A stretch of DNA of 64,000 nt, from contig NZ_QICN01000002.1 of assembly GCF_003201205.1 (NCBI RefSeq), forward strand, positions 235,780 to 299,779. Direction: 5' to 3'. Below, piece after piece: positions 11,733 to 56,077 of the stretch. Each line of letters begins with the position of its first letter. The first letter of the stretch is position 1. A model generated the notes under the pieces. The model ran no database searches. It was given only the letters and a program-made list of their open reading frames with translations, and was not told where the DNA came from. The translations under genes and the position numbers were made by a program. The DNA comes from Sinimarinibacterium flocculans. GTDB taxonomy: Bacteria; Pseudomonadota; Gammaproteobacteria; Nevskiales; Nevskiaceae.

Positions 11733-11954
11733 CGTGATTATCTCCGAACCTCAGCCAGGCTCGTGTGCTGAGCCTGCTGGTGGCGAAGATCGCGACAGGG
11801 CTCAGATGGAGAACATCCCCGTCGATCAATCGGGTGCAGTTTCAGAAGCGGCTGTCGCTTTCGATCTGTCCGCCATGCTGCCCGCCTGCTGCGAGCTTCC
11901 GCCGTCACCGCGCCAGGGCCAGAGCATCGACTGAAGCTGGCTGAGGTTTGGGGA
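11733..11954. other. Intergenic stretch after the protease
   Basis: No gene is recognisable; two short open frames here resemble nothing. A CAGGCTC/GAGCCTG hairpin at about 11757-11777 follows the protease stop but lacks a T run, so it is at best a weak terminator. Confidence 0.35.
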
Positions 11955-12322
11955 GAATCACGAGGCACGATTGACAACTTCACTTTCGGCGACGGCGTGC
12001 ATCAGTACGACGGCGTGCATCAGTACTATGAGACAATCTGCGGCGGCGCCGGACCGGGCTTTGACGGCGCCAGGGCCGTGCACACGTACATGACCAACAA
12101 CCGGCTGACCGATCCGGAAGTGCTGGAAACCGGCTTTCCGGTGCGCGTCGAACAGTTCGCGATCCGCAGCGCTCCGGCGGGCGCGGACGTCACCGTGGCG
12201 GCGATGGCGTCATCCGTCGCATCCGCTTTCTTGCGCCGATGACTGCAGCGATGCTGTCGAACCACCGCAGCACGACAGCGCCGGGGCTGGATGGCGGCGG
12301 TTACGGCGAGGCCGGGCCATGA
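11955..12322 (+). pseudogene. Decayed C-terminal fragment of an oxoprolinase/hydantoinase B gene
   Basis: Frame one reads [12 protein letters not shown], then [20 protein letters not shown], then [20 protein letters not shown] and EQFAIR. That is the conserved C-terminal part of the hydantoinase B/5-oxoprolinase family. The reading then moves to another frame at about 12197: [20 protein letters not shown] through LDGGGYGEAGP and a TGA at 12320-12322. At least one frameshift and the loss of the whole N-terminal part make it a remnant. An 18-base in-frame tandem duplication lies inside it. The TGA overlaps the ATG of the flavodoxin gene, so the intact ancestor was probably cotranslated with it. 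Confidence 0.85.
11991..12026 (+). repeat. Exact 18-bp tandem duplication in the pseudogene
   Basis: GACGGCGTGCATCAGTAC occurs twice in direct succession (11991-12008 and 12009-12026), duplicating six codons (DGVHQY) of the oxoprolinase-like remnant. Confidence 0.9.
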
Positions 12323-12777
12323 AACATCTGCTGCTCGTCTGGCACAGCCAGTCCGGCCACACCCGGCAGCTCGCCGACGCTGCCGCCAGCGGTGCACGCG
12401 AATTTGCCGATGAGGTTGAGCTGCGGATGCGCAATGCCTTCGACGCGACGCTCGACGATCTGCTTTGGGCACACGGCCTGCTGCTCGGCACGCCGGAAAA
12501 CTTCGGCTATATGTCGGGCGGCATGAAGGACTTCATGGACCGCACCTACTACCCGGCCGAGGGCAAGACCATCGGTCTGCCCTACGCCGTGTTCATCAGC
12601 TGCGACAACGACGGCAGCGGCACGGTGCGTGCGATCGAGCGCATCGCCACCGGCTACGGCTGGAAGGCCGTCGCCGAGCCGCTGATCAGCCGTGGTGGAC
12701 TTGCGCCGGGTGCGCTGGATCAGGCGTGCGAACTCGGTCAGATGATGGCGGCGGGTCTGTCACTGAGCTTGTTCTGA
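12319..12777 (+). CDS. Flavodoxin-like FMN protein
   Basis: This 152-residue single-domain protein has the FMN phosphate loop HSQSGHTRQ at residues 9-17 and the later GTPENFGYMSGGMKDFMDRT, which fits the flavin-ring loop of flavodoxin/NAD(P)H:quinone-reductase-like proteins. It probably carries FMN and moves electrons; the partner is unknown. Its ATG overlaps the stop of the decayed oxoprolinase remnant, and no separate ribosome binding site is obvious, so expression may once have depended on that gene. Its last 92 bases overlap the end of the convergent acyltransferase gene. Confidence 0.87.
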   Translation: MKHLLLVWHSQSGHTRQLADAAASGAREFADEVELRMRNAFDATLDDLLWAHGLLLGTPENFGYMSGGMKDFMDRTYYPAEGKTIGLPYAVFISCDNDGSGTVRAIERIATGYGWKAVAEPLISRGGLAPGALDQACELGQMMAAGLSLSLF

Positions 12778-14188
12778 CCAGCGTCGGCCGCGCGGGCTGC
12801 CGCAGCTCACGGACCGCGGCGTGCTTGCGCGGCTGCAGGATCAGGCGCAGCTCGTCCTCGAACAAGGCAACGATGCGCGCCGGATCCTCGATCAGCGCGA
12901 GATCCGCGGAGATGCCGACGGTGACGCGGCCGTTGTAGCTGAACAAGCTGATGCCGACACCGATGCCGGCGGTCTGCGGCGGCCAGAACACCAGGTTGCC
13001 GAGTCGCGCGCCGGCAATCGTCAGCGCCTGCTGCGGTCCGGGCAGGTTCGAGACCACTGCGGCCGACTTGCCGGCGAGGTAGTTGACCAGCGATTTCTCC
13101 CAGGCGATCGGCAGGCGTCCGGCGGCGGCCAGACCGAGCAGCGTCGCACGGGCTTCCGGCGAGCGCTTCAGGCTCTGCATGCGCTGCGCGACCAGGCGCA
13201 GCCGCGTCTGCCAGTCGAGGGGCTCCATCGGCAGGTCGAGCAGCACCAGTCCGAAGCAGTTGCCGAGCTCGCCATCCACTGGCTTGCGCAGGTTCACCGG
13301 AATCGAGATCCGCAGATTTCGTGCATCCGCGCCGTCGGACTGCGCGTCCTTCAGATAGCGGCTGATGGCGCCGGCCAGCGCCGCGAGGAACAGGTCATTG
13401 ACCTTGACCCCGAGTTTGCGCGCCCGTGCCTTGACCGGCGCCAGACGCAGCGCACCCGACCACGCCACCCGACGCTCGCCGCTGAGCGGCTGACGCAGGC
13501 ACGACGGGTTGTCCTGCGGCAGGCGCAGCACGCGACGAAACGCCAAGGCAGTGTCACGTCCGTGGCGCAGCGGCACCGCCAGGTGCTCGCCCCAGCGTGC
13601 ACGATCGCGGGCGATGCGGACCAGGTCCTGTATCGTACCGGCGGCCCGGTCGATGCGGGCAAACAGTCGACGCACCGCCAGCCGCGCCTCGGTCGCCGCA
13701 TCCCGCGGCGGCTGCGCCGGCTCATCGGTACAGCGCATCAGCACGCCGATCAGGGCCATGCCGTCGGCAATCGCATGATGAGCACGGAACAGGACCGTCA
13801 CCCGGCCCTCGTCGCGCATGAACACGATCAGCTGCCAGAGCGGATGACGCTGATCGAGGGCGCCGGCAACCTCGCGCGCGACTGCCGCGGTGATGCAGTG
13901 CTCGGGGCCGTCTTCGGTGAGATGGAAGATGCGCACGTGATACGCCAGCGACAGATCGGCGACATTGCACCAGACCGGCGGCTCGACGCTGCGGTCGACG
14001 CACTGGCGGAAGCGCGGATAGCCGACCAGGCGCTCGACCACGTGCTGCACCAGGCGCCGCACGTCGTCGACCCGGTCGAGTTCGAGCACCGCACTGACCA
14101 CCATCGGATTGTTCGGCTCATCCATCTCGAGCCAGGCGCGGTCCACCGCGCTCATGCGTTCACCTCGCCCCGCTGCCGTCCTAGGCAT
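12686..14188 (-). CDS. Wax ester synthase/diacylglycerol acyltransferase family protein
   Basis: This 500-residue protein should join an acyl-CoA to a fatty alcohol or diacylglycerol, making storage lipid at the inner membrane. The catalytic HHxxxDG motif is HHAIADG at about residues 137-143. Other family marks are HPLWQLIVF before it, VNDLFLAALAGAISRYL in the middle, and VVSNLPGP followed by FWPPQTAGIGVGISLFSYNG near the end. The ATG at 14188 follows a strong site (GGAGGAGA, 6 bases away); an earlier in-frame start 18 codons upstream and a later Met are possible. The C terminus runs past the family end by about 40 residues, overlapping the convergent flavodoxin gene. Confidence 0.92.
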   Translation of the reverse strand: MPRTAAGRGERMSAVDRAWLEMDEPNNPMVVSAVLELDRVDDVRRLVQHVVERLVGYPRFRQCVDRSVEPPVWCNVADLSLAYHVRIFHLTEDGPEHCITAAVAREVAGALDQRHPLWQLIVFMRDEGRVTVLFRAHHAIADGMALIGVLMRCTDEPAQPPRDAATEARLAVRRLFARIDRAAGTIQDLVRIARDRARWGEHLAVPLRHGRDTALAFRRVLRLPQDNPSCLRQPLSGERRVAWSGALRLAPVKARARKLGVKVNDLFLAALAGAISRYLKDAQSDGADARNLRISIPVNLRKPVDGELGNCFGLVLLDLPMEPLDWQTRLRLVAQRMQSLKRSPEARATLLGLAAAGRLPIAWEKSLVNYLAGKSAAVVSNLPGPQQALTIAGARLGNLVFWPPQTAGIGVGISLFSYNGRVTVGISADLALIEDPARIVALFEDELRLILQPRKHAAVRELRQPARPTLVRTSSVTDPPPSSDRVRTPDPAHPAQVHHG

Positions 14189-41215: not shown

Positions 41216-41860
41216 TCACATTGACGCCGCGCCGGCAGCCCCGGTAGCGAGCATGCCGCGGTCGACGATGAAGGCGATGATGTCGTCGACCCCCTGCCCG
41301 GTCTTGAGGTTGGTCATGACGAAGGGCAGCGCACCGCGCATGCGTGCGGCGTCGTGCGCCATGACCTCCAGGTTGGCGCCGACGTGGGGGGCAAGATCCG
41401 TCTTGTTGATGACCAGCAAATCCGCCTTGGTGATGCCCGGCCCGCCCTTGCGCGGAATCTTCTCGCCGCCGGCGACGTCGATCACGTAGATCGTCAGGTC
41501 GGACAGCTCGGGACTGAAGGTCGCCGCGAGATTGTCGCCGCCGGATTCGATGAAGATCAGTTCTAGGTCGGGAAAGCGCGCCGACATGCGCGCCACGGCT
41601 TCGAGGTTGATCGACGCGTCCTCGCGGATCGCCGTGTGCGGGCAGCCGCCGGTCTCGACACCCATGATGCGGTCGGGTGCGAGCGCGCCGGCCGCCACGA
41701 GCAGGCGCTCGTCCTCGCGGGTGTAGATGTCGTTGGTCACGACCGCGAGCCGATGCTGCTCGCGCATGCGCTTGCACAGGACCTCGACCAGCGTGGTCTT
41801 GCCGGAACCGACAGGACCGCCGACGCCAACTCGCAATGGGTTCGAAGCTTGGGCGCTCAC
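41216..41860 (-). CDS. ureG: Urease accessory GTPase UreG
   Basis: This 214-residue GTPase delivers nickel to urease. It has the P loop [18 protein letters not shown] at residues 12-29, [25 protein letters not shown] with the Cys-Pro-His nickel motif, [16 protein letters not shown] and [10 protein letters not shown] for guanine recognition. It is the last gene of the urease operon, 3 bases after ureF. Confidence 0.98.
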
Positions 41861-41863
41861 GAT

Positions 41864-42535
41864 TCAACTCCTGAACAGTCGGGAATACTGGGTTTCATGA
41901 CGGCTGCCGAGAATGCCGAGCATCGGCGCCTGCGTGGACAGTTCGTCGTCGCTGCGGTGCATCGCCGCCTGCACGACCTCGCCGACGACCGGCCGCAGCG
42001 CGATCAGCAGTTTCTGGCCGGCGACCTGGCCGAGCGGTACCGCCTTGAGCGCCGCCATCACCTGGTTCTCGGCCCAGCCGTAGAGATAGCCGTACAGCGC
42101 TGCCGTCGGGGCGATGCGCCAGAGCGCGCTGGCGCGCGCGTGCGCGGCCGGATACGACAGCTCCGGCATTTCGGCTGCGCCTTCGTCATCGAGCGACTTC
42201 AGCAGCTGCTGCAGCGAGTAGCCCATCTGCAGCGTCTCGGCACGCGACTCGCGGGTCTCGCGCGTCGCGAGGAAGGCTTCGTTCCACCGGGCAAAGCGCG
42301 CGGGGTCGTTCGCGTCCCAGGCACTGCGCAGCCGCCACCAGACCGGCGCCTCGTAACGGCCGAGCACCAGGCGCAGCGCGTCACCGATCCAGACCTGCGC
42401 CGTCGCGGCATCGCGGACCAGTCCATGCTCGATCGCGGCTTCGAGCCCCTGCGAATAGCTGTAGGCGCCGACGGGCAGCGCCGGACTCGACAGCTGCAGC
42501 AGCGCGCCCAGATCGCCGGTCACACTCGCGCTCAT
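41864..42535 (-). CDS. ureF: Urease accessory protein UreF
   Basis: This 223-residue helical protein bridges UreD and UreG in the nickel-insertion complex. It shows LLQLSSPALPVGAYSYSQGL, EAAIEHGLV, the central RETRESRAETLQMGYSLQQL and the C-terminal RPVVGEVVQAAMHRSDDELS followed by STQAPMLGILGSRHETQYSR. Its ATG overlaps the ureE stop (TGATG). Confidence 0.97.
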   Translation of the reverse strand: MSASVTGDLGALLQLSSPALPVGAYSYSQGLEAAIEHGLVRDAATAQVWIGDALRLVLGRYEAPVWWRLRSAWDANDPARFARWNEAFLATRETRESRAETLQMGYSLQQLLKSLDDEGAAEMPELSYPAAHARASALWRIAPTAALYGYLYGWAENQVMAALKAVPLGQVAGQKLLIALRPVVGEVVQAAMHRSDDELSTQAPMLGILGSRHETQYSRLFRS

Positions 42536-43086
42536 CAGCGATGGAACTGCAAGGTCGACAGATCGACCGCGCGCCGCGCGTGCGCCTCGCGCGAGAGCTG
42601 CTCGCCGAGCGAGCCGCCCTGCGCATCGTGGTCATGACGATGGCCGCCGCCGTAGGCGCCGGATTCGGGCTCGAACGGCGCCACGCATTCGGCGACGATC
42701 AGGCCGAGCCGCTGCAGCATCTCGCGCAGCACCGGGTCCTGCTCCAGATGCAGCGCCTGCGGCGCCAGCATCAGCGGCACGTGCCGGTTGCCGAGGTGAT
42801 AGGCAGCGCGCAGCAGGGAGAACCGCGGATCGGCGTCGTCCTCGCGCGCGGTCACGCGGTACAGCGGCTCGATCGCCGCGCGTACGCGCACGACCTCGCC
42901 GGTCTCGGCGCGCAGCAGGTCACCGCCGCGCAGCACCGTGCCGCGCGGCAGCAGCACCCCCACGTCCGTGCCGTCGTCGAGCACGCTGCGCAACCGGCTG
43001 CGCGACCGTTCGGCGAAGCTCAGCACCAGTTCGCGCGGCGCGCAGCGCACGTCGCGCGCATCGGCCACGGTCGTCAGTCGGAGCAT
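42535..43086 (-). CDS. ureE: Urease accessory nickel chaperone UreE
   Basis: This 183-residue protein starts MLRLTTVADARD. The peptide-binding N domain contains LSFAERSRSRLRSVLDDGTD and LLPRGTVLRGGD; the metal-binding C domain has YHLGNRHVPLML and LHLEQDPVLREMLQRLGL with the conserved His. The C-terminal tail is His-rich (GGGHRHDHDAQGG), as in nickel-storing UreE. An in-frame upstream extension lies inside ureC and is rejected. Confidence 0.96.
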   Translation of the reverse strand: MLRLTTVADARDVRCAPRELVLSFAERSRSRLRSVLDDGTDVGVLLPRGTVLRGGDLLRAETGEVVRVRAAIEPLYRVTAREDDADPRFSLLRAAYHLGNRHVPLMLAPQALHLEQDPVLREMLQRLGLIVAECVAPFEPESGAYGGGHRHDHDAQGGSLGEQLSREAHARRAVDLSTLQFHR

Positions 43087-43093
43087 CGGCGCG

Positions 43094-44800
<1,707 letters not shown>

Positions 44801-44803
44801 GGC

Positions 44804-45115
44804 TCAGCTCCCCAGCGGTCCGGACACTTTCGCGTTGAAGCCGTAGACGATGCGGTCGCCGGCGAGCGCGACCAGCTCGACCGTGCGCTCCTGCCCCGGC
44901 TCGAAGCGCACCGCGGTGCCGGCGGCAATGTTGAGCCGGAAGCCGCGCGCGGACGCGCGATCGAAGTCCAGCGCCTCGTTGGTCTCGAAGAAGTGATAGT
45001 GCGAGCCGACCTGCACCGGCCGGTCGCCGGTGTTGGTCACGGTCAGCGTCAACGTGTCACGTCCGACGTTGAGTTCCAGCTCGCCGGGCTCGGGCAGCAG
45101 TTCACCGGGAATCAT
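44804..45115 (-). CDS. ureB: Urease beta subunit
   Basis: This 103-residue structural subunit begins [16 protein letters not shown] and contains [20 protein letters not shown] with [19 protein letters not shown]. The second ATG (45115) is preferred over the one at 45130 because it is 7 bases after AGGAG and matches the family start. Separate ureA and ureB genes, not a fusion, are the usual proteobacterial form. Confidence 0.97.
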
Positions 45116-45126
45116 CGCGGCGCTCC

Positions 45127-45429
45127 TCATGCAATCGGATCGTGGACGGTCACCAGCTTGGTGCCGTCGGGAAACGTGGCCTCGACCTGGATATCCGGAA
45201 TCATCTCCGGCACACCATCCATGACCTCGTCGCGGCTCAGCAGCGTGCGGCCGTGGCTCATCAGCTCGGCGACGCTGCGCCCGTCGCGCGCGCCTTCGAG
45301 GATGCCGGCCGTAATCAGCGCGACGGCTTCCGGGTGATTGAGCTTGAGGCCGCGCGCCTTGCGCCGCTCGGCCAGCAGCGCGGCAGTGAAGATCAGCAGC
45401 TTGTCCTTCTCTCGGGGCGTGAGTTCCAT
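45127..45429 (-). CDS. ureA: Urease gamma subunit
   Basis: This 100-residue subunit starts [20 protein letters not shown], with [20 protein letters not shown] and the typical [20 protein letters not shown] end. It forms the alpha-beta-gamma trimer with UreB and UreC. Its ATG overlaps the ureD stop. Confidence 0.98.
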
Positions 45430-46490: not shown

Positions 46491-47402
46491 TCATGGGTTC
46501 GCGACGCGAACGGCGCGCGCCGTCGCCGCCGCACGGTTCTCGACACCGAGCTTCTCGAACACCTGCTCCAGATGCTTGTTCACGGTGCGGTGGCTGATGC
46601 CAAGGATCTCGCTGATCTCGCGGTTGGATTTGCCGCGGCTGATCCACACCAGCACATCGGCCTCGCGCCCGGTCAGCGAGAACGCGTCCTGCAGCACGCG
46701 CTCCTCGCGCCCCGGACTGACATCCGCAAGCCGGTACAGGAACTCCGCCGGCCCGGTGGAGCCGACGAAGGACAATTCGAGGCGCCGGGCGCCGATCTCG
46801 ACGAAACTCGCCGACGGCGCATCGGCGCCGCCTTCGCGCAGGCGTGCGAGGCGCGTGGTCACATCGGCCGGCAAGGCCTGTGCACCGGTACCCCCGAACA
46901 GCTCGGTCAGCAGCGTCGCTGCGCGCGGCGTGCACCACTGCAGGCGACCTTCGCGATCAGTCGACAGCAGGTAGCGCCCGGTCGCATCGAGTGCCGCACG
47001 GGAACCCTGGGCGATGCGCGCATTCGCCAGGTGCACGCGGATGCGCGCCAGCAGCTCGTCGACGACGATGGGCTTGGTCACGTAGTCGACGCCGCCGGCT
47101 TCGAGTCCCTTGACCACGTGCCAGCTCTCGGACAGGCCGGTCATGAAGATCACCGGCACGTGCGTGAGCTGCTTGTCCTGCTTGAGCCGGCGACAGGTCT
47201 CGAAGCCGTCGAGCCCCGGCATCACCGCGTCCATCAGGATCAGGTCCGGCGTGATCTGGTCGACCAGCGACAGCGCGCTGGTGCCATCGGTCGCGACCAG
47301 CACGGTGACGCCCGCGTGATCGAGCGTATCGGTCAGGAAGCTCAGGTTGCCCGGCGTGTCGTCGACGACGAGCACGATGTCGCGACGCGCCGCCTCAGCC
47401 AT
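46491..47402 (-). CDS. LuxR-type response regulator of the urea locus
   Basis: This 303-residue regulator has a receiver (VLVVDDTPGNLSFLTDTL, phospho-Asp58 in LILMDAVMPG, YVTKP), then a PAS-like middle (about 135-230, YLLSTDREGRLQWCTP). A LuxR/FixJ HTH closes it (LTGREADVLVWISRGKSNRE, ISEILGISHRTVNKHLEQVF). It overlaps the stop of the transporter-kinase gene by 8 bases and precedes the urease genes, so it is the obvious phosphorylation partner of the kinase and a likely activator of the locus; that role is inference. Confidence 0.93.
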   Translation of the reverse strand: MAEAARRDIVLVVDDTPGNLSFLTDTLDHAGVTVLVATDGTSALSLVDQITPDLILMDAVMPGLDGFETCRRLKQDKQLTHVPVIFMTGLSESWHVVKGLEAGGVDYVTKPIVVDELLARIRVHLANARIAQGSRAALDATGRYLLSTDREGRLQWCTPRAATLLTELFGGTGAQALPADVTTRLARLREGGADAPSASFVEIGARRLELSFVGSTGPAEFLYRLADVSPGREERVLQDAFSLTGREADVLVWISRGKSNREISEILGISHRTVNKHLEQVFEKLGVENRAAATARAVRVANP

Positions 47403-50400
47403 CGCTGCGCTCCACCGGCTGCGGGTCGCCCTGCAGGCCGTCGAGCAGTCCGACATAGCCCTTGAGGTCGAAGCCGGCGACGAGCTGCTGTAGCCGCGCG
47501 GCGAAGGCGCGGCTCTCGGGGATGGCCGCTTCCATCTCGCGCAGCTTGGCCTCGATGCCGCGCACGTGGCCGATGCGCCCGAGCTGCAGCAGCTCGTCGA
47601 CATAGGGCTGGGCATCTGCCGGCGGCCGTTCGTCGCCGGACAAGGCTTCCGGCGCCGCGGCCGGCAGCGATTCGCCTTCGTAGACCCAGCGCAGCTTCAG
47701 CAGCCGCCCGATGCATTCGAGCATGCCGTCGATGTCGATCGGCTTGACCAGGAAGGCGTCGTGCGGCGCATTGCGCTCGCCGCCGCGGCTGTAGTCGTGG
47801 GCGTTGGCGGAGACCATCATGATCTTCGGCTGCGGCGGTTCGAGCGCGCGCAGCGCCGCCGCAACCTCCCAGCCGCTCATGCCGGGCATCGCGATGTCGA
47901 GCATCACCAGCTGCGGCCGGCATTCGCCGGCGAGATCGAGACAGCCGAGGCCGTCGGCGGCGGCGTACAGATTGAAGCCGAGCGGCCGCAGGATGCTCTC
48001 GACCAGGCCACGGTGGGCGGCGTCGTCGTCCGCCATCAGCACGGTCACGCGTGGGCCGAGATAGCCGATGATGCGCCGCTGTGCATCCTCGGCCGTCCCG
48101 GCTCCGGTGGCCCGCGACAGATACAGGCGCAGGCTGAAGGTGCTGCCCTGGCCCGGCGTGCTGCGCACGGCGATCTCGCCGCCCATGATCTGCACCAGAA
48201 CCTTGGTGATCGTCAGGCCCAGGCCGACGCCGGGCACCGCCTGCACGCCGGGCATGCCGCCGCGCTCGAAGGGCTTGAAGATCGCCTCGAGATCGTCCTG
48301 GCGGATGCCGATGCCGGAGTCGCTGATCTCGATCTCCGCGACCTGGCTGCTCGGGTAGCGCACCGTGAAGCAGACGTGCCCCTGCTGCGTGTACTTCACC
48401 GCGTTCGACAGCAGGTTGATCAGGATCTGGCGCAGGCGCTTCTGGTCGGCGTGCACGCAGGCCGGCAACTGCGCGGGCCGCTCGTAGCGGAACTCGATGG
48501 ACTTGGCCGCCGCCTGCACGCGGAACATGTCGGCGATCTGGTCGAGGAATTCCGGCAGCGCGACCTTGTCGCGCGACAGGCGCAGCAGGCCGCTCTCGAT
48601 CTTGGAGATGTCGAGCAGGCCGTCGACGAGATTCGACAGGTGCGAGGCGCTGCGGCGGATCACCTGGATCGCCTTCTCCGGACGCGCGGTGCCGCGTTCG
48701 AGCAACTGCGCATAGCCGAGGATCGCGTTCAGCGGCGAGCGGATCTCGTGGCTGATACCGACCAGATAACGGCTCTTCGCCTCGTTGGCGCCCTCCGCGA
48801 GCTCCTTGGCCTTCTGCAGCTCGGCATCGGTGCGTTCGTGCGCCTCGATCTCCTGCATCAGCATCGCCGTCTGCCGCTGCGTTTCCTGCTCGGCGGCGTG
48901 GCGGCTGTGCTGCGCCAGCACGAGCAGCCAGGCCGAAACGCCAGAGACGATCAGCAGCGCGAAGAACACCACGGTCAGCACATTGCGCACGGCCTCCGCA
49001 TGCGCCGGCGCCGCACCGACGTACTGCAGGTAGATCACCGTCAGCAGAAAGCCGATCACCAGGTTCAGCAGCACGAAGATGCCGACGAAGTGGCCGGTGC
49101 TCGGATGCACGGCGTCGGCGACGCGTTGCGGCAGCAGGCGCCGCAGCATCGCGCCGAGCTGCTGGCCGAAACGGCTGTCCTGCTTGCAGATGTCGTGGCA
49201 GCGCGCCTCGAGCGTGCAGCACAGCGAGCAGATCGGTCCGGCGTAGGCCGGGCACAGGGCCATGTCGCTGCGTTCGAAGACGTTCTCGCAGATCACGCAG
49301 CGGATCTCCGGCGCCTGGTCGAGGTCTCCGGAGCGGCGCGCGATGTACCAGCGCCCCTGCGTCTGCCAGGCGATCAGCGGCGCGAGCGCAAAGGCCACGC
49401 CGAAGCCGAGGAACGGCGACAGCGCCTGCGCCATCGTCCCCAGCGCGCCGACGAAGGCCGCGGTGGACACGATCACCGAACCGAGCATCGCGCCGACGCC
49501 GACCGGATTGATGTCGTACAGGTGCGCGCGCTTGAACTCGATGGCCGGCGGCGACCAGCCGACGCGCTTGTTGATGACCAGGTCCGCGGTCAGCGCGCCG
49601 ATCCAGGCGACGGCGAAGTTCGCGTAGAGCATCAGCACGCCTTCGATCACGCGCAGGATGCCGACCTCCATCAGCAGCAGTGCCAGCAGCACGTTGAACA
49701 CCAGCCAGACCACGCGGCCCGGATGCGCATGCGTGAGCCGCGAGAAGAAGTTCGACCAGGCGATCGAGCCGGCGTAGGCGTTGGTGACGTTGATCTTGAG
49801 CTGGCAGACGATGACGAACACCGCGGTCAGGGCAAGCGCCACCGTCGGTGAACCGAAGGTCTCGCCGAAGGCGACGAAGAACATCTGCGAGGGATCGGCG
49901 GCGCGCGCTTCCGGCACGCCGACGCTGAGCGCGAAGTACGCGAGGAAGGAGCCGGCGAGCAGCTTGAGGCCGCCCATGAACACCCAGCCCGGCCCGCTGG
50001 TGATCATGGCCGTCCACCAGCGCACGCGACCGATGCGCTCGCGGTCCGGAAGGAAGCGCAGGTAATCGGCCTGCTCGCCGATCTGCGGCAGCAGCGACAG
50101 CAGCGTCGAGGCGCAGATCGCGAACAGCACCGGGTCGAGTCCGCCGCCGGCGTCGCCGCTGCGGCCGGCAAAGCTCGTCCAGCCCTTGATGGTCTCGCCG
50201 TCGGCGGTCAGCAGGAAGCCCAGCGCCACGACCTGCAGCAGCAGCCACACCGGCTGCGTCGCCAGTTGCACGCGGCTGATCATGCGGATGCCGTAGATCG
50301 CGACCGGAATCACGATCAGCGAGCTGAGGATGTGCCCGGCCCACAGCGGGATGCCGAAGACCAGTTCGAGCACGCCGGACATGATGCTGGCCTCGATCGC

Positions 50401-50880
50401 CAGCAGCAGGAAGGTGAACGAGGCGTAGATCAGCGAGGTGATCGTCGACCCCATGTAGCCGAAGCCTGCGCCACGCGTGAGCAGGTCCACGTCGAGCCCG
50501 TAGCGGGCGGCGTAGCGCGCGATCGGCATGCCGATCAGGAACATCAGCGCGCAGACGACGACGATCGCCGTCGCCGCGTTGGCGAAGCCGTAGGCGAGGG
50601 TCAGCGCCCCGCCGATCGCCTCGCAGGCGAGAAACGAGATCGCGCCGTAGGCGGTGTGCGCGACCCGCGCGGCCGAATACTTGCGCGCGCGCTCCGCGGT
50701 GTAGCGCAGCGCGTAGTCCTCCAGCGTCTGGCTGGCGACCCATTTGTTGTACTGGCGGCGCTCGCGCAGGATGCGCTGCCGCGGCGGCGCGCCCGCGCGC
50801 AGCACCGCCGCCTCGCTGCGTTCGGTGTGCACGCCGCGCATCTTGCGCGCCGTCGCCGGCTTTGCACCTACGTCAAACAC
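47395..50880 (-). CDS. NCS1 transporter-histidine kinase-receiver fusion
   Basis: This 1161-residue membrane sensor has residues about 85-510 as an NCS1/purine-cytosine-permease-type transporter (repeated helices; LATQPVWLLLQVVALGFLL, INVTNAYAGSIAWSNFFSRL). A Cys-rich block with eight Cys between 528 and 565 follows, then two helices (598-660) and a coiled coil (660-705). The kinase has H711 in YLVGISHEIRSPLN, N box INLLSNAVKY, and G boxes DSGIGI and GVGLGL. A receiver (about 945-1065) has Asp995 in LVMLDIAMPG and VKPID. A helical tail ends the protein. The GTG start at 50880 follows a G-rich site; an ATG 13 codons later is possible. Sensing through a transporter domain recalls CbrA, which uses a different transporter family. 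Urea or a related compound is the inferred signal. Confidence 0.93.
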   Translation of the reverse strand: MFDVGAKPATARKMRGVHTERSEAAVLRAGAPPRQRILRERRQYNKWVASQTLEDYALRYTAERARKYSAARVAHTAYGAISFLACEAIGGALTLAYGFANAATAIVVVCALMFLIGMPIARYAARYGLDVDLLTRGAGFGYMGSTITSLIYASFTFLLLAIEASIMSGVLELVFGIPLWAGHILSSLIVIPVAIYGIRMISRVQLATQPVWLLLQVVALGFLLTADGETIKGWTSFAGRSGDAGGGLDPVLFAICASTLLSLLPQIGEQADYLRFLPDRERIGRVRWWTAMITSGPGWVFMGGLKLLAGSFLAYFALSVGVPEARAADPSQMFFVAFGETFGSPTVALALTAVFVIVCQLKINVTNAYAGSIAWSNFFSRLTHAHPGRVVWLVFNVLLALLLMEVGILRVIEGVLMLYANFAVAWIGALTADLVINKRVGWSPPAIEFKRAHLYDINPVGVGAMLGSVIVSTAAFVGALGTMAQALSPFLGFGVAFALAPLIAWQTQGRWYIARRSGDLDQAPEIRCVICENVFERSDMALCPAYAGPICSLCCTLEARCHDICKQDSRFGQQLGAMLRRLLPQRVADAVHPSTGHFVGIFVLLNLVIGFLLTVIYLQYVGAAPAHAEAVRNVLTVVFFALLIVSGVSAWLLVLAQHSRHAAEQETQRQTAMLMQEIEAHERTDAELQKAKELAEGANEAKSRYLVGISHEIRSPLNAILGYAQLLERGTARPEKAIQVIRRSASHLSNLVDGLLDISKIESGLLRLSRDKVALPEFLDQIADMFRVQAAAKSIEFRYERPAQLPACVHADQKRLRQILINLLSNAVKYTQQGHVCFTVRYPSSQVAEIEISDSGIGIRQDDLEAIFKPFERGGMPGVQAVPGVGLGLTITKVLVQIMGGEIAVRSTPGQGSTFSLRLYLSRATGAGTAEDAQRRIIGYLGPRVTVLMADDDAAHRGLVESILRPLGFNLYAAADGLGCLDLAGECRPQLVMLDIAMPGMSGWEVAAALRALEPPQPKIMMVSANAHDYSRGGERNAPHDAFLVKPIDIDGMLECIGRLLKLRWVYEGESLPAAAPEALSGDERPPADAQPYVDELLQLGRIGHVRGIEAKLREMEAAIPESRAFAARLQQLVAGFDLKGYVGLLDGLQGDPQPVERSDG

Positions 50881-51106: not shown

Positions 51107-52399
51107 ATGGCAATCGTGAAACTCAGACCGCATCTGGCGGGGCTACTGACGGGGGTCGCGCTCGGCGCCGCCAGCTTCGCGGTACAGGCCGCCGACACCA
51201 TCAAGGTCGGCGTACTGCACTCGCTGTCCGGCACGATGGCGATCTCGGAGACCACGCTGAAGGACACCGTCCTGATGATGGTCGACGAGCAGAACAAGAA
51301 GGGCGGCCTGCTCGGCAAGAAGCTCGAGGCCGTCGTCGTCGACCCGGCATCGAACTGGCCGCTGTTCGCCGAGAAGGCGCGCGAGCTGCTCGCCAAGGAC
51401 AAGGTCGACGTCGTCTTCGGCTGCTGGACCTCGGTGTCGCGCAAGAGCGTGCTGCCGGTGTTCGAGGAGCTCAACGGCCTGCTGTTCTACCCGGTGCAGT
51501 ACGAGGGCGAGGAATCGTCCAAGAACGTGTTCTACACCGGCGCCGCACCGAACCAGCAGGCGATCCCGGCCGTCGACTACCTGATGAACGATCTGGAAGT
51601 CGAGCGCTGGGTGCTCGCCGGCACCGACTACGTCTACCCGCGCACGACCAACAAGATCCTCGAGGCCTACCTCAAGGCCAAGGGCGTGGCCGCGGACGAC
51701 ATCATGATCAACTACACGCCGTTCGGACATTCCGACTGGCAGTCGATCGTCTCCGACATCAAGAAGTTCGGCAGCGCCGGCAAGAAGACCGCGGTGGTCT
51801 CGACGATCAACGGCGACGCCAACGTGCCGTTCTACAAGGAACTCGCCAACCAGCAGATCTCCGCCGAGGACATCCCGGTGGTCGCGTTCTCGGTCGGTGA
51901 GGAAGAGCTGGCCGGTCTCGACACCGGCCCGCTGGTCGGCCACCTCGCCGCGTGGAACTACTTCATGTCCATCGACACGCCGGCCAACGAGGCGGCGATC
52001 GCGAACTGGCACGCGTTCATCAAGAACGACGAGCGCACCTTCAACGATCCGATGGAAGCGACGGTGATCGGCTTCAACCTCTGGGCCAAGGCGGTCGAGA
52101 AGGCCAAGACCACCGAGGTCGACAAGGTCAGCGACGCCATCATCGGCCTCGAAGTGCCGAACCTCACCGGCGGCACCGCGAAGATGCTGGCCAACCACCA
52201 CCTGACCAAGCCGGTGTTCATCGGCGAGATCCGCGACGACGGTCAGCTCGACGTGGTCTGGCAGACGGAAGGCGAAGTGCCGGGAGACGCCTGGTCGGAT
52301 TTCCTCGACGGTTCCAAGGACATCGAGGCCGACTGGGTCACGCTCAAGTGCGGCAACTACAACACCAAGACCAAGAAGTGCTCGGGTCAGAACTACTGA
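51107..52399 (+). CDS. urtA: Urea ABC transporter, substrate-binding protein
   Basis: This 430-residue periplasmic binding protein has a signal peptide of about 28 residues (ending FAVQA). Marks are TIKVGVLHSLSGTMAISETT, FGCWTSVSRKSVLPVFEELN, LLFYPVQYEGEESSKNVFYT and GDANVPFYKEL, all close to known UrtA sequences. It binds urea or short amides and delivers them to UrtBC. The ATG at 51107 follows GGAGAG. It leads the urtABCDE operon and diverges from the transporter-kinase gene. Confidence 0.97.
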   Translation: MAIVKLRPHLAGLLTGVALGAASFAVQAADTIKVGVLHSLSGTMAISETTLKDTVLMMVDEQNKKGGLLGKKLEAVVVDPASNWPLFAEKARELLAKDKVDVVFGCWTSVSRKSVLPVFEELNGLLFYPVQYEGEESSKNVFYTGAAPNQQAIPAVDYLMNDLEVERWVLAGTDYVYPRTTNKILEAYLKAKGVAADDIMINYTPFGHSDWQSIVSDIKKFGSAGKKTAVVSTINGDANVPFYKELANQQISAEDIPVVAFSVGEEELAGLDTGPLVGHLAAWNYFMSIDTPANEAAIANWHAFIKNDERTFNDPMEATVIGFNLWAKAVEKAKTTEVDKVSDAIIGLEVPNLTGGTAKMLANHHLTKPVFIGEIRDDGQLDVVWQTEGEVPGDAWSDFLDGSKDIEADWVTLKCGNYNTKTKKCSGQNY

Positions 52400-52503: not shown

Positions 52504-54153
52504 ATGACCGCTCGCCTCCATCGCCCGCCCGGCCGCACCGTCGCGCACCTGATGCTCTGGTGCTGGGCGCTGCTGCTCGCTTCCGGTCTGCAGGTCGCCG
52601 CCGCGCAGGCGCCGGGCGACACGCACCATGCGGAGCAGGTGGCGCAACTCGCCACGGCAGGCTTCGGCGAGAAGGAGCGCATCGTCGATGCGCTGCTCGA
52701 AGCGCGTCATCCGCAGACGCGTATGCTGCTCGCCGCCTTCCTCGACGGCCGTCTGGCGTCGCGCAAGTCCGACGGCAAGGTCTTCATCACCGAGGACGCC
52801 GACGACGGCGTCGCACTCGTCGATCCGGTCGACGCCAGTGCCGCCGGTACGGCGAAGTCATCGGCGCTGCGCAAGATCGGCACCAACAACCGCCTGCGCA
52901 AGAAACTCAAGGGCGCCATCGCCCTCTTCGACCTCGACGACGCCGATGCCGGCGTGCGCCTCGCTGCCGTCGACGAGATGCTGCGCGAACTCGACGCCAC
53001 CACGGTGAGCGCACTGCGCACGCGGCTCGGGGTCGAGGACAGCGCGCGCGTGCGCCGCGCCCTCGAAGTCGGCCTCGCGCTCGCCGACCTGTCCTCGCCC
53101 GATGCCGAGGTGCGGCTGGCGGCCGTCGGCACGCTTGAGGGCGAACTCGGCACCGCGGTCTACAACCGCCTCAAGACGCTCGAACGTGATGAGCCGGACG
53201 CGCGGGTGCGGGACGCCGCCTTGTCGGGCCTGCGTCATATCGACCAGTGGCGCCGCTTCTACGGCGGTGTCGAGACCCTGTTCTTCGGCCTGTCGCTGGG
53301 CTCCGTGCTCGTGCTCGCCGCGATCGGCCTCGCCATCACCTTCGGCGTCATGGGCGTAATCAACATGGCGCACGGCGAGCTGATGATGATCGGCGCCTAC
53401 ACCGCCTACGTCATGCAGTTGCTGCTGCCGCAGCACACGACGCTGGCCGTGCTGCTGGCAGTGCCGGCGGCCTTTCTCGTCTCGGGCCTGGTCGGCGTCG
53501 GCATCGAACGCGGCATCGTGCGCTTTCTCTACGGCCGCCCACTGGAGACCCTGCTCGCGACCTTCGGCCTGTCGCTGATCCTGCAGCAGGCGGTGCGCTC
53601 GATCTTCTCGCCGCTAAACCGCTCGGTGGCCACGCCGGAATTCATGAGCGGCTCGTGGCAGATCAACGAAGTCTTCTCGCTGACCTGGAACCGCCTGTAC
53701 ATCGTCATCTTCGCACTGCTCGTGTTCGCGCTGCTGCAGCTCGTGCTCAACAAGACCTCGCTGGGCCTGAAGGTGCGCGCGGTCTCGCAGAACCGCGAGA
53801 TGGCGCGGGCGCTGGGCGTGCGCAGCGCCCGCGTCGACGCGATGACGTTCGGCCTCGGCGCCGGCGTCGCCGGTGTGGCCGGCGTTGCGCTGTCGCAGCT
53901 CACCAACGTCGGGCCGAACCTGGGGCAGAGCTACATCGTCGACTCGTTCATGGTCGTGGTCTTCGGCGGCGTCGGCAATCTCTGGGGCACGCTGATCGGC
54001 GGCATGTCGCTGGGTGTCGTCAACAAGCTGCTCGAACCCTGGTCGGGCGCGGTGATGGCGAAGATCCTCGTGCTGGTCTTCCTGATCCTGTTCATCCAGC
54101 GGCGTCCGCGCGGGCTGTTCCCGCACAAGGGCCGCGCGGCGGAGGGCCACTGA
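52504..54153 (+). CDS. urtB: Urea ABC transporter, permease UrtB
   Basis: This 549-residue protein has an N-terminal signal segment (about 1-32) and a periplasmic HEAT-like domain of about 200 residues typical of UrtB (GVRLAAVDEMLRELD, EVRLAAVGTLEGEL). A LivH-type permease with about eight helices follows (ITFGVMGVINMAHGELMMIG, GIERGIVRFLYGRPLETLLA, VVVFGGVGNLWGTLIGG). The ATG at 52504 starts the signal. The urtC ATG overlaps its stop (TGATG). Confidence 0.96.
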   Translation: MTARLHRPPGRTVAHLMLWCWALLLASGLQVAAAQAPGDTHHAEQVAQLATAGFGEKERIVDALLEARHPQTRMLLAAFLDGRLASRKSDGKVFITEDADDGVALVDPVDASAAGTAKSSALRKIGTNNRLRKKLKGAIALFDLDDADAGVRLAAVDEMLRELDATTVSALRTRLGVEDSARVRRALEVGLALADLSSPDAEVRLAAVGTLEGELGTAVYNRLKTLERDEPDARVRDAALSGLRHIDQWRRFYGGVETLFFGLSLGSVLVLAAIGLAITFGVMGVINMAHGELMMIGAYTAYVMQLLLPQHTTLAVLLAVPAAFLVSGLVGVGIERGIVRFLYGRPLETLLATFGLSLILQQAVRSIFSPLNRSVATPEFMSGSWQINEVFSLTWNRLYIVIFALLVFALLQLVLNKTSLGLKVRAVSQNREMARALGVRSARVDAMTFGLGAGVAGVAGVALSQLTNVGPNLGQSYIVDSFMVVVFGGVGNLWGTLIGGMSLGVVNKLLEPWSGAVMAKILVLVFLILFIQRRPRGLFPHKGRAAEGH

Positions 54154-55247
54154 TGCACACGCCGCTGCTGAAGACCCTGCTCACCGAACGCGGCAGCCAG
54201 GTGTTTCTGGGCGTGCTGATCGTCACGGCGATTCTCGTCCCCCTCCTGAACCTCGCGGTCCCGGCCGACTCGGCGCTGCACGTGTCGACCTACACCGTCA
54301 CGCTGCTCGGCAAGTACCTGTGCTACGCGCTGCTGGCGATCGCGGTCGATCTGGTCTGGGGCTACTGCGGGATTCTCAGCCTGGGCCACACCGCGTTCTT
54401 CGCGCTCGGCGGCTACGCGATGGGCATGTACCTGATGCGACAGATCGGGACGCGCGGCGTCTACGGCGATCCGGTGCTGCCGGACTTCATGGTGTTCCTG
54501 AACTGGTCCGAGCTGCCGTGGTACTGGCACGGCTTCGACATGTTCTGGTTCGCGATGCTGATGGTGGTGCTCGCGCCCGGTGCGCTCGCCTACGTCTTCG
54601 GCTGGTTCGCGTTCCGCTCGCGCGTGACCGGGGTGTACCTGTCGATCATCACCCAGGCACTGACTTTCGCGCTGCTGCTCGCCTTCTTCCGTAACGAGAT
54701 GGGCTTCGGCGGCAACAACGGCCTGACCGATTTCAAGGACCTGCTCGGCTTCGACCTGCAGGCGGACGCGACACGCATCGGCCTGTTCCTCGCCACGGCG
54801 TTCGCGCTCGGCGGCGGCTACGTCGCCTGCCGCGCCATCGCCGCCTCGCGCGCCGGCCGCGTCATCCGCGCGATCCGCGATGCCGAGGGCCGCGCGCGCT
54901 TCATCGGCTACCGCGTCGAGTCGTACAAGCTGTGGCTGTGGACCTTCTCGGCGGTACTCGCCGGCATCGCCGGCGCGCTGTACGTGCCACAGGTCGGCAT
55001 CATCAATCCCGGCGAGTTCGCGCCGATCAACGCGATCGAGATCGTCATCTGGGTCGCGGTCGGCGGCCGCGGCACGCTGTACGGCGCGGTGCTCGGTGCA
55101 TTGGTCGTCAACTACGCCAAGACCTGGTTCACCGGCGCCTTCCCGGAAGTCTGGCTGTACGCGCTGGGCGCACTGTTCGTGCTGGTCACGCTGTTCCTGC
55201 CGCAGGGCATCGTCGGCCTGCTGGCGCGTGCGAGGAAGACCGCATGA
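54153..55247 (+). CDS. urtC: Urea ABC transporter, permease UrtC
   Basis: This 364-residue LivM-type inner-membrane permease shows AIAVDLVWGYCGILSLGHTA, FFALGGYAMGMYLMRQIG, YLSIITQALTFALLLAFFRN and EIVIWVAVGGRGTLYGAVLG, all typical of UrtC. It pairs with UrtB in the membrane channel. Start and stop overlap both neighbours, indicating tight translational coupling. Confidence 0.97.
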   Translation: MHTPLLKTLLTERGSQVFLGVLIVTAILVPLLNLAVPADSALHVSTYTVTLLGKYLCYALLAIAVDLVWGYCGILSLGHTAFFALGGYAMGMYLMRQIGTRGVYGDPVLPDFMVFLNWSELPWYWHGFDMFWFAMLMVVLAPGALAYVFGWFAFRSRVTGVYLSIITQALTFALLLAFFRNEMGFGGNNGLTDFKDLLGFDLQADATRIGLFLATAFALGGGYVACRAIAASRAGRVIRAIRDAEGRARFIGYRVESYKLWLWTFSAVLAGIAGALYVPQVGIINPGEFAPINAIEIVIWVAVGGRGTLYGAVLGALVVNYAKTWFTGAFPEVWLYALGALFVLVTLFLPQGIVGLLARARKTA

Positions 55248-56077
55248 AGCTGCCGGCCGCCCTCGAGACCTTTGCCGACCGCGAGCACGTCTTCGAGTTC
55301 ATGGCGCGCGGCTCGCGCGTGCCACGCCTCGACGTCTCGCACAACGTGATCCTCTACCTAGAGGACATCACCGTCGCCTTCGACGGATTCCGCGCGCTGA
55401 ACGATCTCACCCTGTACGTCGACGCCGGCGAGCTGCGTTGCATCATCGGCCCGAACGGCGCCGGCAAGACGACGATGATGGACGTGATTACCGGCAAGAC
55501 GCGCCCGGATTCCGGTTCCGCGTGGTTCGGCCAGACCATCGACCTGCTGCAGCTCGACGAACCCGAGATCGCCGCCGCCGGCATCGGCCGCAAGTTCCAG
55601 AAGCCGACCGTGTTCACCGAGCACTCGGTGTTCGAGAACCTGGAACTGGCGATGGCCGGCGACAAGCGCGTCTGGCGCATCCTCTTCGCAAAGCTGACGC
55701 CGGCGCAGATCGAGCGCATCGAGTCGGTGCTCGAAACCATCGGCCTCAAGGATCAGCGCGATGCGCGCGCCGGCAGCCTGTCGCACGGCCAGAAGCAGTG
55801 GCTGGAGATCGGCATGCTGCTGATGCAGGACCCGCAGCTATTGCTCGTCGACGAACCGGTGGCAGGCATGACGCCGCAGGAGACCGAGCGCACCGCCGAG
55901 CTGCTGCTCGGCCTCGCCGGCAAGCACTCGGTGGTCGTCGTCGAGCACGACATGGCGTTCGTGCGTTCGATCGCGCGCAAGGTGACGGTGCTGCACGAAG
56001 GCTCGGTCCTCGCCGAGGGCTCGCTCGACGAGGTGCAGAACAACGCCAAGGTCGTCGAGGTGTATCTCGGTGAGTGA
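55244..56077 (+). CDS. urtD: Urea ABC transporter, ATPase UrtD
   Basis: This 277-residue ATP-binding subunit has Walker A GPNGAGKTT at about residues 69-77, the LSHGQKQWLEIGMLLMQ signature, Walker B LLLVDEPVAGM and the switch His in VVVEHDM. The N-terminal extension (HNVILYLEDITVAFDGFRAL) is normal for UrtD. ATGA overlap with urtC. Confidence 0.97.
   Translation: MKLPAALETFADREHVFEFMARGSRVPRLDVSHNVILYLEDITVAFDGFRALNDLTLYVDAGELRCIIGPNGAGKTTMMDVITGKTRPDSGSAWFGQTIDLLQLDEPEIAAAGIGRKFQKPTVFTEHSVFENLELAMAGDKRVWRILFAKLTPAQIERIESVLETIGLKDQRDARAGSLSHGQKQWLEIGMLLMQDPQLLLVDEPVAGMTPQETERTAELLLGLAGKHSVVVVEHDMAFVRSIARKVTVLHEGSVLAEGSLDEVQNNAKVVEVYLGE

Follow-up and report, generated by a model that had tools for sequence, protein, structure and literature searches.

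The window of this study, a stretch of 64,000 nucleotides from Sinimarinibacterium flocculans, holds the genes of urease and of a Urt-type ATP-binding cassette (ABC) transporter, and between the two sets lies a frame (47395-50880, reverse strand), open for 1161 codons, for a hybrid sensor histidine kinase. The N-terminus of this kinase is predicted to have the fold of an NCS1-type transporter, and we think that the protein is probably a sensor for simple nitrogen sources (urea, formamide-type amides). Downstream on the same strand is the gene of a response regulator with a receiver (REC) and a LuxR part, whose ATG overlaps the stop of the kinase (ATGGCTGA), and then come ureD, ureA, ureB, ureC, ureE, ureF and ureG, while urtA, urtB, a urtC-like permease gene and two genes for ABC ATPases diverge from the kinase. 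This is the order given by the initial annotation, with kinase, LuxR regulator and urease genes in a row and the urt genes divergent, and it holds by Pfam, NCBIfam and tblastn. The spacing suggests that the kinase, the regulator and the ure genes form one operon. As a control, 29 HATPase_c matches were found in the genome, and within the urt/ure stretch this kinase is the only one. The features are:

41216-41860, reverse strand: ureG; the name comes from a P-loop sequence and from 66-87% identity with the ureF-adjoining gene of other urease operons, not from a family scan
41864-42535, reverse strand: ureF, family-profile match
42535-43167, reverse strand: ureE, family-profile match
43094-44800, reverse strand: ureC, family-profile match
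44804-45115, reverse strand: ureB, family-profile match
45130-45429, reverse strand: ureA, tblastn, 74% identity
45429-46472, reverse strand: ureD, with a true start probably later than that of the frame, since PF01774 covers only frame residues 121-317
46491-47402, reverse strand: REC-LuxR response regulator (Pfam), start overlapping the kinase stop
47395-50880, reverse strand: entire open frame of the hybrid sensor histidine kinase, with the ATG at 50841 (residue 14) as likely start
47716-48042, reverse strand: receiver domain (Response_reg), residues 947-1055, Pfam
48118-48447, reverse strand: HATPase_c, residues 812-921, Pfam
48589-48777, reverse strand: HisKA, residues 702-764, Pfam
48814-49101, reverse strand: two further helices, residues 594-689, secondary structure of the model
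49183-49299, reverse strand: Cys-rich ribbon-like linker, residues 528-566, with Cys 528, 531, 551 and 554, model and alignments
49360-50733, reverse strand: NCS1-type transporter-like domain, residues 50-507, AlphaFold model, fold search and hhalign
50869-50875, reverse strand: perfect half-site TGACGTA of the kinase-upstream palindrome, comparison with relatives
51107-52399, forward strand: urtA, TIGR03407, 556.9 bits
52450-54153, forward strand: urtB, TIGR03409, 420 bits
54297-55247, forward strand: urtC-like permease, PF02653 in frame 53247-55247
54932-56077, forward strand: urtD-like ABC ATPase frame, PF00005 and PF12399
56070-56786, forward strand: urtE-like ABC ATPase, PF00005

A porin-like gene (PF13609, 56913-57869, forward strand) lies immediately 3' of urtE and recalls the porin for amides and urea in the fmd cluster of Methylophilus.

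All parts of a hybrid histidine kinase (HisKA, HATPase_c and a receiver) are found by Pfam, and the view that a transporter-like N-terminus is fused to a histidine kinase and a receiver was thus borne out. Beyond these three, no Pfam family matches the kinase at E≤1, and none at all before residue 702; the C-terminal tail past the receiver is weakly conserved. The gene had been started at the GTG of the open frame, but a conserved DNA half-site (50869-50875) falls within the first codons of that frame, which makes the ATG at residue 14 the likelier start.

An AlphaFold model of residues 36-690, made with a 47-row alignment (pLDDT 85.4, pTM 0.84), matches chains of CodB and Mhp1 in the first five places of a PDB search (E 1.8e-10 to 8.5e-8; CodB 1.8e-10, Mhp1 1.4e-9), followed by other LeuT folds from 2.7e-6, with Nramp as the next fold class, by SSS members from 6.5e-6 and by the plant urea carrier DUR3 at 2.3e-5. 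With hhalign, a profile of 47 domains and six NCS1 proteins defined by Pfam aligned end to end (probability 98.9, E 1.2e-17, 400 columns), compared to a probability of 0.4 against three SSS proteins, and PF00474 (SSS) has no match in the kinase or at the window locus. Judged from the model and the profiles, the N-terminus is an NCS1-type transporter fold, of the family that we take to be TC 2.A.39; it is not of the SSS type, and the initial annotation was right also in that the transporter family differs from the SLC5 family of CbrA. The Pfam model of NCS1, PF02133 (cut-off 23.5 bits), does match standalone relatives: L029, which is 42% identical, with 31.8 bits, alone among five close standalone relatives, and the distant L256 with 36.4 bits, where the family profile gives 166.5 bits. 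In the window's own genome it finds nothing at E≤0.001, and the family profile gave only chance matches of zinc-finger type (E≥3.2) among PDB sequences. Residues 500-700 have no match in Pfam, where the existence of a STAC model was left unchecked, and the model has there a Cys-rich stretch with short strands, whose four main cysteines are common to the standalone relatives too. In the model, the second of the two helices that follow is long and points towards the kinase; both helices are presumably transmembrane.

The substrate pocket was mapped via hhalign and alignments, with the residues of Mhp1 and CodB taken from PMC9379551, PMC3812048 and PMC4195764 (the papers cited by PMC number are represented here by excerpts). 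Among 191 distinct domains, taken from 251 hits with cut-offs of 300 profile bits and 440 columns, Glu163, Lys362, Asn364, Asn367, Glu269, Gln270, Asp272 and Arg275 are invariant. Asn318 of the reference is retained as Asn367 and position 314 as Asn364, while Gln121 is replaced by Glu163, and Ser312, which in Mhp1 is a ligand of the Na2 site (PMC3812048), by Lys362. Two aromatic residues that sandwich the base are conserved throughout NCS1 (PMC9379551), but not in this family, where the position of Trp117 holds Phe in 124 and Leu in 53 of 177 domains, and that of Trp220 Leu in 165, Met in 11 and Phe in one. The replacement of this pair argues against a flat aromatic ligand, and we therefore call the family NCS1-related by fold, and not a nucleobase carrier. 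At the Trp117 position (residue 159) all 51 amide kinases have Phe, and two urea lineages, the window's included, have Leu; no residue was found that unites all six lineages of urea-type kinases, as grouped by eye on the tree.

The fused domains also differ from the standalone ones. Phe83 (at the position of Gln42 in Mhp1), Glu87 and Ala370 are fixed in all 181 fused domains and differ in all ten standalone domains, and Ala164 is found in 178 of the 181, with Gly in the ten. Near the pocket, the residues of sensor and standalone proteins are thus F83 and Y, E87 and Q or F, A164 and G, and A370 and S, and positions 57, 150, 201 and 546 have a like pattern. The 181 include L143, L155 and L162, which have other outputs, and L095 with an interrupted frame; the ten form two clades, and are thus not ten independent observations.

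The family was surveyed in genomes of Pseudomonadota, the window's own genome being counted. Members were found in 28 of the 61 near relatives and in 40 of the order's 85 genomes; the draw from the class yielded 20 among 369 genomes (partial or weak in G121, G203 and G393), and that from the phylum 54 among 398 (only weak or partial in G626 and G667). A collection-wide scan confirmed at least 580 of 593 pattern matches, and the best 80 of these at least 580 all come from Pseudomonadota, except for one metagenome-assembled genome (L099). Around these genes we looked for urease, UrtA-type, formamidase (fmdA) and aliphatic amidase (amiE) genes, by tblastn above 60 bits in about 19 kb or less of sequence; the identities of FmdA and AmiE come from NCBIfam equivalogs (752 and 725 bits). 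In the phylum draw, loci were fetched for 55 of the 56 kinase-length hits besides the window's own (G655 was left out), and every one of the 55 has a urea/amide gene nearby: 37 have fmdA or amiE without urease or a true UrtA, 17 the converse and none both, and L213, at a contig end, has a UrtA-like gene only. The same is true for 76 of the 80 named loci, which were chosen by similarity; the others are L062 and L089, with short flanks, L080, where an amidase from a different family lies no more than 3 kb away, and L061. In the class draw, with 17 full-length fused members besides the window's own, only nine have such genes (G041, G093, G131, G153, G190, G221, G345, G439 and the first copy of G331). 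A universal linkage was therefore dropped, and the link is common but not universal; the proposed co-occurrence with urea and nitrogen genes held in the phylum draw and the named loci, and failed in much of the class draw. The regulator, matched via its C-terminal half, is found in 53 of the 55 phylum-draw loci. The other two, L243 (8002-10683, reverse strand) and L252 (8166-10862, reverse strand), have shorter kinases of the family near fmdA, with frames of 894 and 899 amino acids, HisKA and HATPase_c, no receiver, and no LuxR regulator found nearby. In G121, a fragment of the family at a contig end adjoins urease genes.

The partner genes were followed on a quick tree whose 87 family rows, left by a 90% identity filter, were labelled amide (51), urea (23), mixed (4), without partner genes (3) or standalone (6); three distant rows were added. 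One of the mixed labels, that of L129, is based on a ureG match of 50%. If the urea label is set against all others, seven gains or losses are needed, at least six of them forced by starred branches, compared to 20.5 in shuffles. With urea and amide rows only there are five changes, and four on a tree without the distant rows but with three members that have other outputs. Several moves of the sensor between amide and urea operons follow from the tree, in keeping with a class of ligand shared by both.

The domain also occurs without a kinase. In the surveys of near relatives, order and class, all eleven close standalone relatives adjoin ureG (seven, one with a split frame) or fmdA (four). L022, L023 and L029 have a standalone NCS1-like protein with a CxxC...CxxC tail as the last gene of ure operons, and from this position it is a candidate urea permease. 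At L021, L024, L025 and L260 the gene of a standalone relative lies back to back with that of the kinase and has fmdA and amiE as neighbours, and no urt gene was found in the stretch fetched; in L021 fmdA seems to be split over two frames (11821-13045, forward strand). Further away, the distant L256 (8449-9942, forward strand; 26% identical) adjoins a nitrilase-like frame and a gene for a UrtA-like binding protein, and the more distant L258 (8003-9628, reverse strand), with Arg at the position of the Na2 Ser, has neighbour frames that are hydantoinase-like by eye. Other fusions exist as well. The hybrid-kinase core is not matched in four of the fused domains, of which L143 and L162 belong to other kinases, L155 to a PAS-GGDEF-EAL protein and L095 to an interrupted frame. 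The two proteins of G220 and that of G115 have as outputs PAS-GGDEF-EAL, two PAS domains with a hybrid kinase, and a kinase without a receiver in frame. In G220 the NCS1-like domain sits on PAS-GGDEF-EAL (cyclic di-GMP turnover), and in a second copy on two PAS domains and a hybrid kinase (L276, 6852-10526, reverse strand; L277, 8523-12338, forward strand), with no urea/amide gene of the searched set near either; these fusions suggest that the domain is a portable sensory module.

Upstream of many kinase genes there is a palindrome, ATACGTCA-NN-TGACGTAT. In the 70 upstream regions above 200 nt that were given by 81 fused tree rows, exact dyads of the form TACGTC-N4-GACGTA occur in 12 and ATACGC-N6-GCGTAT in eight, compared to top counts of one in five shuffles. 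TACGYMA-NN-TKRCGTA with at most two mismatches is found in 40 of the 70 regions against 0.35 expected, figures that are optimistic as the pattern was derived from these same regions and related genomes are not independent. By class, the palindrome is present in 32 of 44 amide, six of 20 urea and two of four mixed regions, and in neither of the two without partner genes. In a genome-wide scan of 12 genomes, the strict form TACGTCA-NN-TGACGTA with at most one mismatch is fitted by five of the listed sites (G628, G055, G056, G060 and G625), all at the kinase locus. With one mismatch of the degenerate palindrome, a backwards-pattern control had more hits in each of these 12 genomes, and the pattern alone is thus not specific genome-wide.

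We propose, at a rough probability of 0.56, that the protein is a urea/amide transceptor that acts through the LuxR regulator. Urea, or probably formamide or acetamide in relatives, would bind in the substrate pocket of the NCS1 fold, and a conformational change would run through the Cys ribbon and the two further helices to the kinase. The phosphate would then pass to the LuxR-type regulator, either directly or via the attached receiver, and the regulator could act in the divergent intergenic region, perhaps by binding the palindrome, and switch on urt, ure (fmdA and amiE in relatives) and its own genes. The domain may also transport its ligand, coupled to H+ rather than Na+. In favour of such ligands, the fmdCABDEF genes are reported to be induced by formamide and urea (PMC10781810).

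Several observations weigh against this reading. PF02133 finds none of 47 kinase domains at E≤0.1, so the assignment to NCS1 needs intermediates, profiles or structure, and the residue mapping rests on alignments of about 15-20% identity. L061 is a true exception without a urea/amide gene, and eight of the 17 members of the class draw have no gene of the searched set in the stretch seen. Three of these proteins (two in G220, one in G115) have other output parts, and in G135, G279 and G322 the contig on the divergent side is only about 5 kb or less, but G211 and the second copy of G331 are clear exceptions that keep both kinase and regulator. It is because of the class draw that we lowered our confidence slightly, from 0.60. 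The urea-type upstream regions are poorer in the palindrome than the amide-type ones, and the window has no full palindrome: its best match has five mismatches, and there is none at three or fewer in the intergenic region. The half-site in the window is alone weak evidence, as such half-sites are commoner than expected (seven in 64 kb against 1.9).

The strongest of the competing explanations, although we regard it as unlikely, is that the NCS1-like domain does not bind the ligand itself and instead monitors whether the neighbouring ABC transporter (Urt or Urt-like) is at work, or its loaded binding protein, in the way that BceS monitors BceAB (PMC11109136). Most loci do place the kinase divergent from a urtA-type operon. 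The urease loci L228, L229, L235 and L255, however, have no urt gene above 60 bits in the fetched stretch, the rest of the genomes not being searched, and the same holds, with the same limit, for the four loci where kinase and standalone relative lie together. The pocket residues are moreover equally invariant in fused and standalone domains. It is less probable still that the sensor reads ammonium, pH or the general nitrogen state. The urea and amide pathways of the partner genes all release ammonia, protonation could be sensed by the invariant Lys at the Na2 position, and there are orphan kinase-regulator pairs without urea/amide genes, but the partner genes are mostly substrate-specific, and NtrC is named as the general nitrogen regulator of urea use in Pseudomonas stutzeri A1501 (PMC8443478). 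The orphan pairs, with no urea/amide gene in the stretch seen, are those at L284, L286, L287 and L289 (8410-11814).

The initial annotation had suggested allantoin, a purine or urea itself as ligand, and a sensor for allantoin, a purine or another hydantoin must now be seen as highly improbable. The fold is that of NCS1, and CodB and Mhp1 are the best structural matches, but the aromatic sandwich is replaced, and many relatives have the kinase beside genes for formamidase, aliphatic amidase and an ABC transporter of UrtA-like type. Genes for purine or allantoin use are absent among the identified neighbours, most neighbours being unannotated and no search having been aimed at such genes. A further possibility, compatible with the transceptor, is that the domain is a bifunctional carrier of urea or amides, for which transport is as important as signalling. 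The carrier-like core is intact, and the SLC5 domain of CbrA is reported to carry histidine (PMC13022988). Phe83, Glu87 and Ala370 differ from all ten standalone domains, as if tuned away from transport, and we give the bifunctional carrier only a small chance.

Beyond the urea/amide transceptor itself, a wider picture can be sketched, tentatively and at somewhat less than even odds: a new branch of the NCS1 fold for urea and short-chain amides, in which the standalone proteins would be Na+-independent permeases at the ends of ure operons or in formamidase operons. In the fused proteins the domain would be a portable module for sensing, in most cases the inducer sensor still missing for urt/ure and fmd/ami genes, in one genome also wired to GGDEF-EAL, and in a few genomes the paralogues would stand back to back around the palindrome. 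As the standalone paralogues are natural controls, exchanging a few residues would be a way to test how a transporter turns into a receptor.

Fusions of a transporter with a kinase are already known, and the one here is on an NCS1 fold and tied to urea and amide genes; no description of an NCS1-kinase fusion was found in searches of the open-access literature, to which they were confined. A genome paper describes a urt locus with a hybrid kinase and a LuxR regulator, with fmdA numbered as adjacent, and the excerpt of it does not mention a transporter domain (PMC13296017). Transceptors are called rare (PMC13022988, PMC11109136), and this would be a widespread one on another family of the LeuT type. 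The SLC5-STAC kinases CbrA and CrbS are alike in that a LeuT-fold transporter domain is joined by a small linker to a histidine kinase, and K196 of CbrA at the Na2 site (PMC13022988) is paralleled by Lys362 at the Ser312 position of Mhp1. They differ in having an SSS/SLC5 body and a helical STAC linker, a four-helix bundle (PMC13022988), where this family has an NCS1 body and, in the model, a Cys-rich ribbon followed by two more helices. An SLC5-type transporter-kinase may be present in the window's genome too (L262, 2792-3805, forward strand), as a frame of 1200 amino acids with HATPase_c near C3:335165, divergent from an SSS symporter. The ammonium sensor kinase of Kuenenia stuttgartiensis also has a transporter domain on a histidine kinase for a nitrogen source, but with an Amt fold and another ligand (PMC5764959).

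Mhp1 and CodB share with the domain the fold, the Asn residues of transmembrane helix 8 and an end-to-end alignment, but have no kinase, keep the aromatic substrate sandwich and have a hydroxyl ligand at Na2 where this family has Lys. The genes fmdCABDEF of Methylophilus methylotrophus and blr0968-blr0973 of B. japonicum combine FmdA or AmiE with Urt-like ABC genes, and the UrtB/UrtC-like permeases beside fmdA/amiE in B. japonicum were judged to be carriers of amides and not of urea (PMC3098086). For both clusters, only a putative positive regulator and no membrane sensor is named in the excerpts (PMC10781810, PMC3098086), whereas in relatives of the window, the loci of Bradyrhizobium included (L065 and others), the kinase adjoins such a fmd/ami cluster. 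Urease and the uptake of urea are important for soil nitrogen and for the loss of fertiliser, and the kinase is a candidate for the sensor by which the use of formamide and urea is induced, where a putative activator is all that the excerpts name so far.

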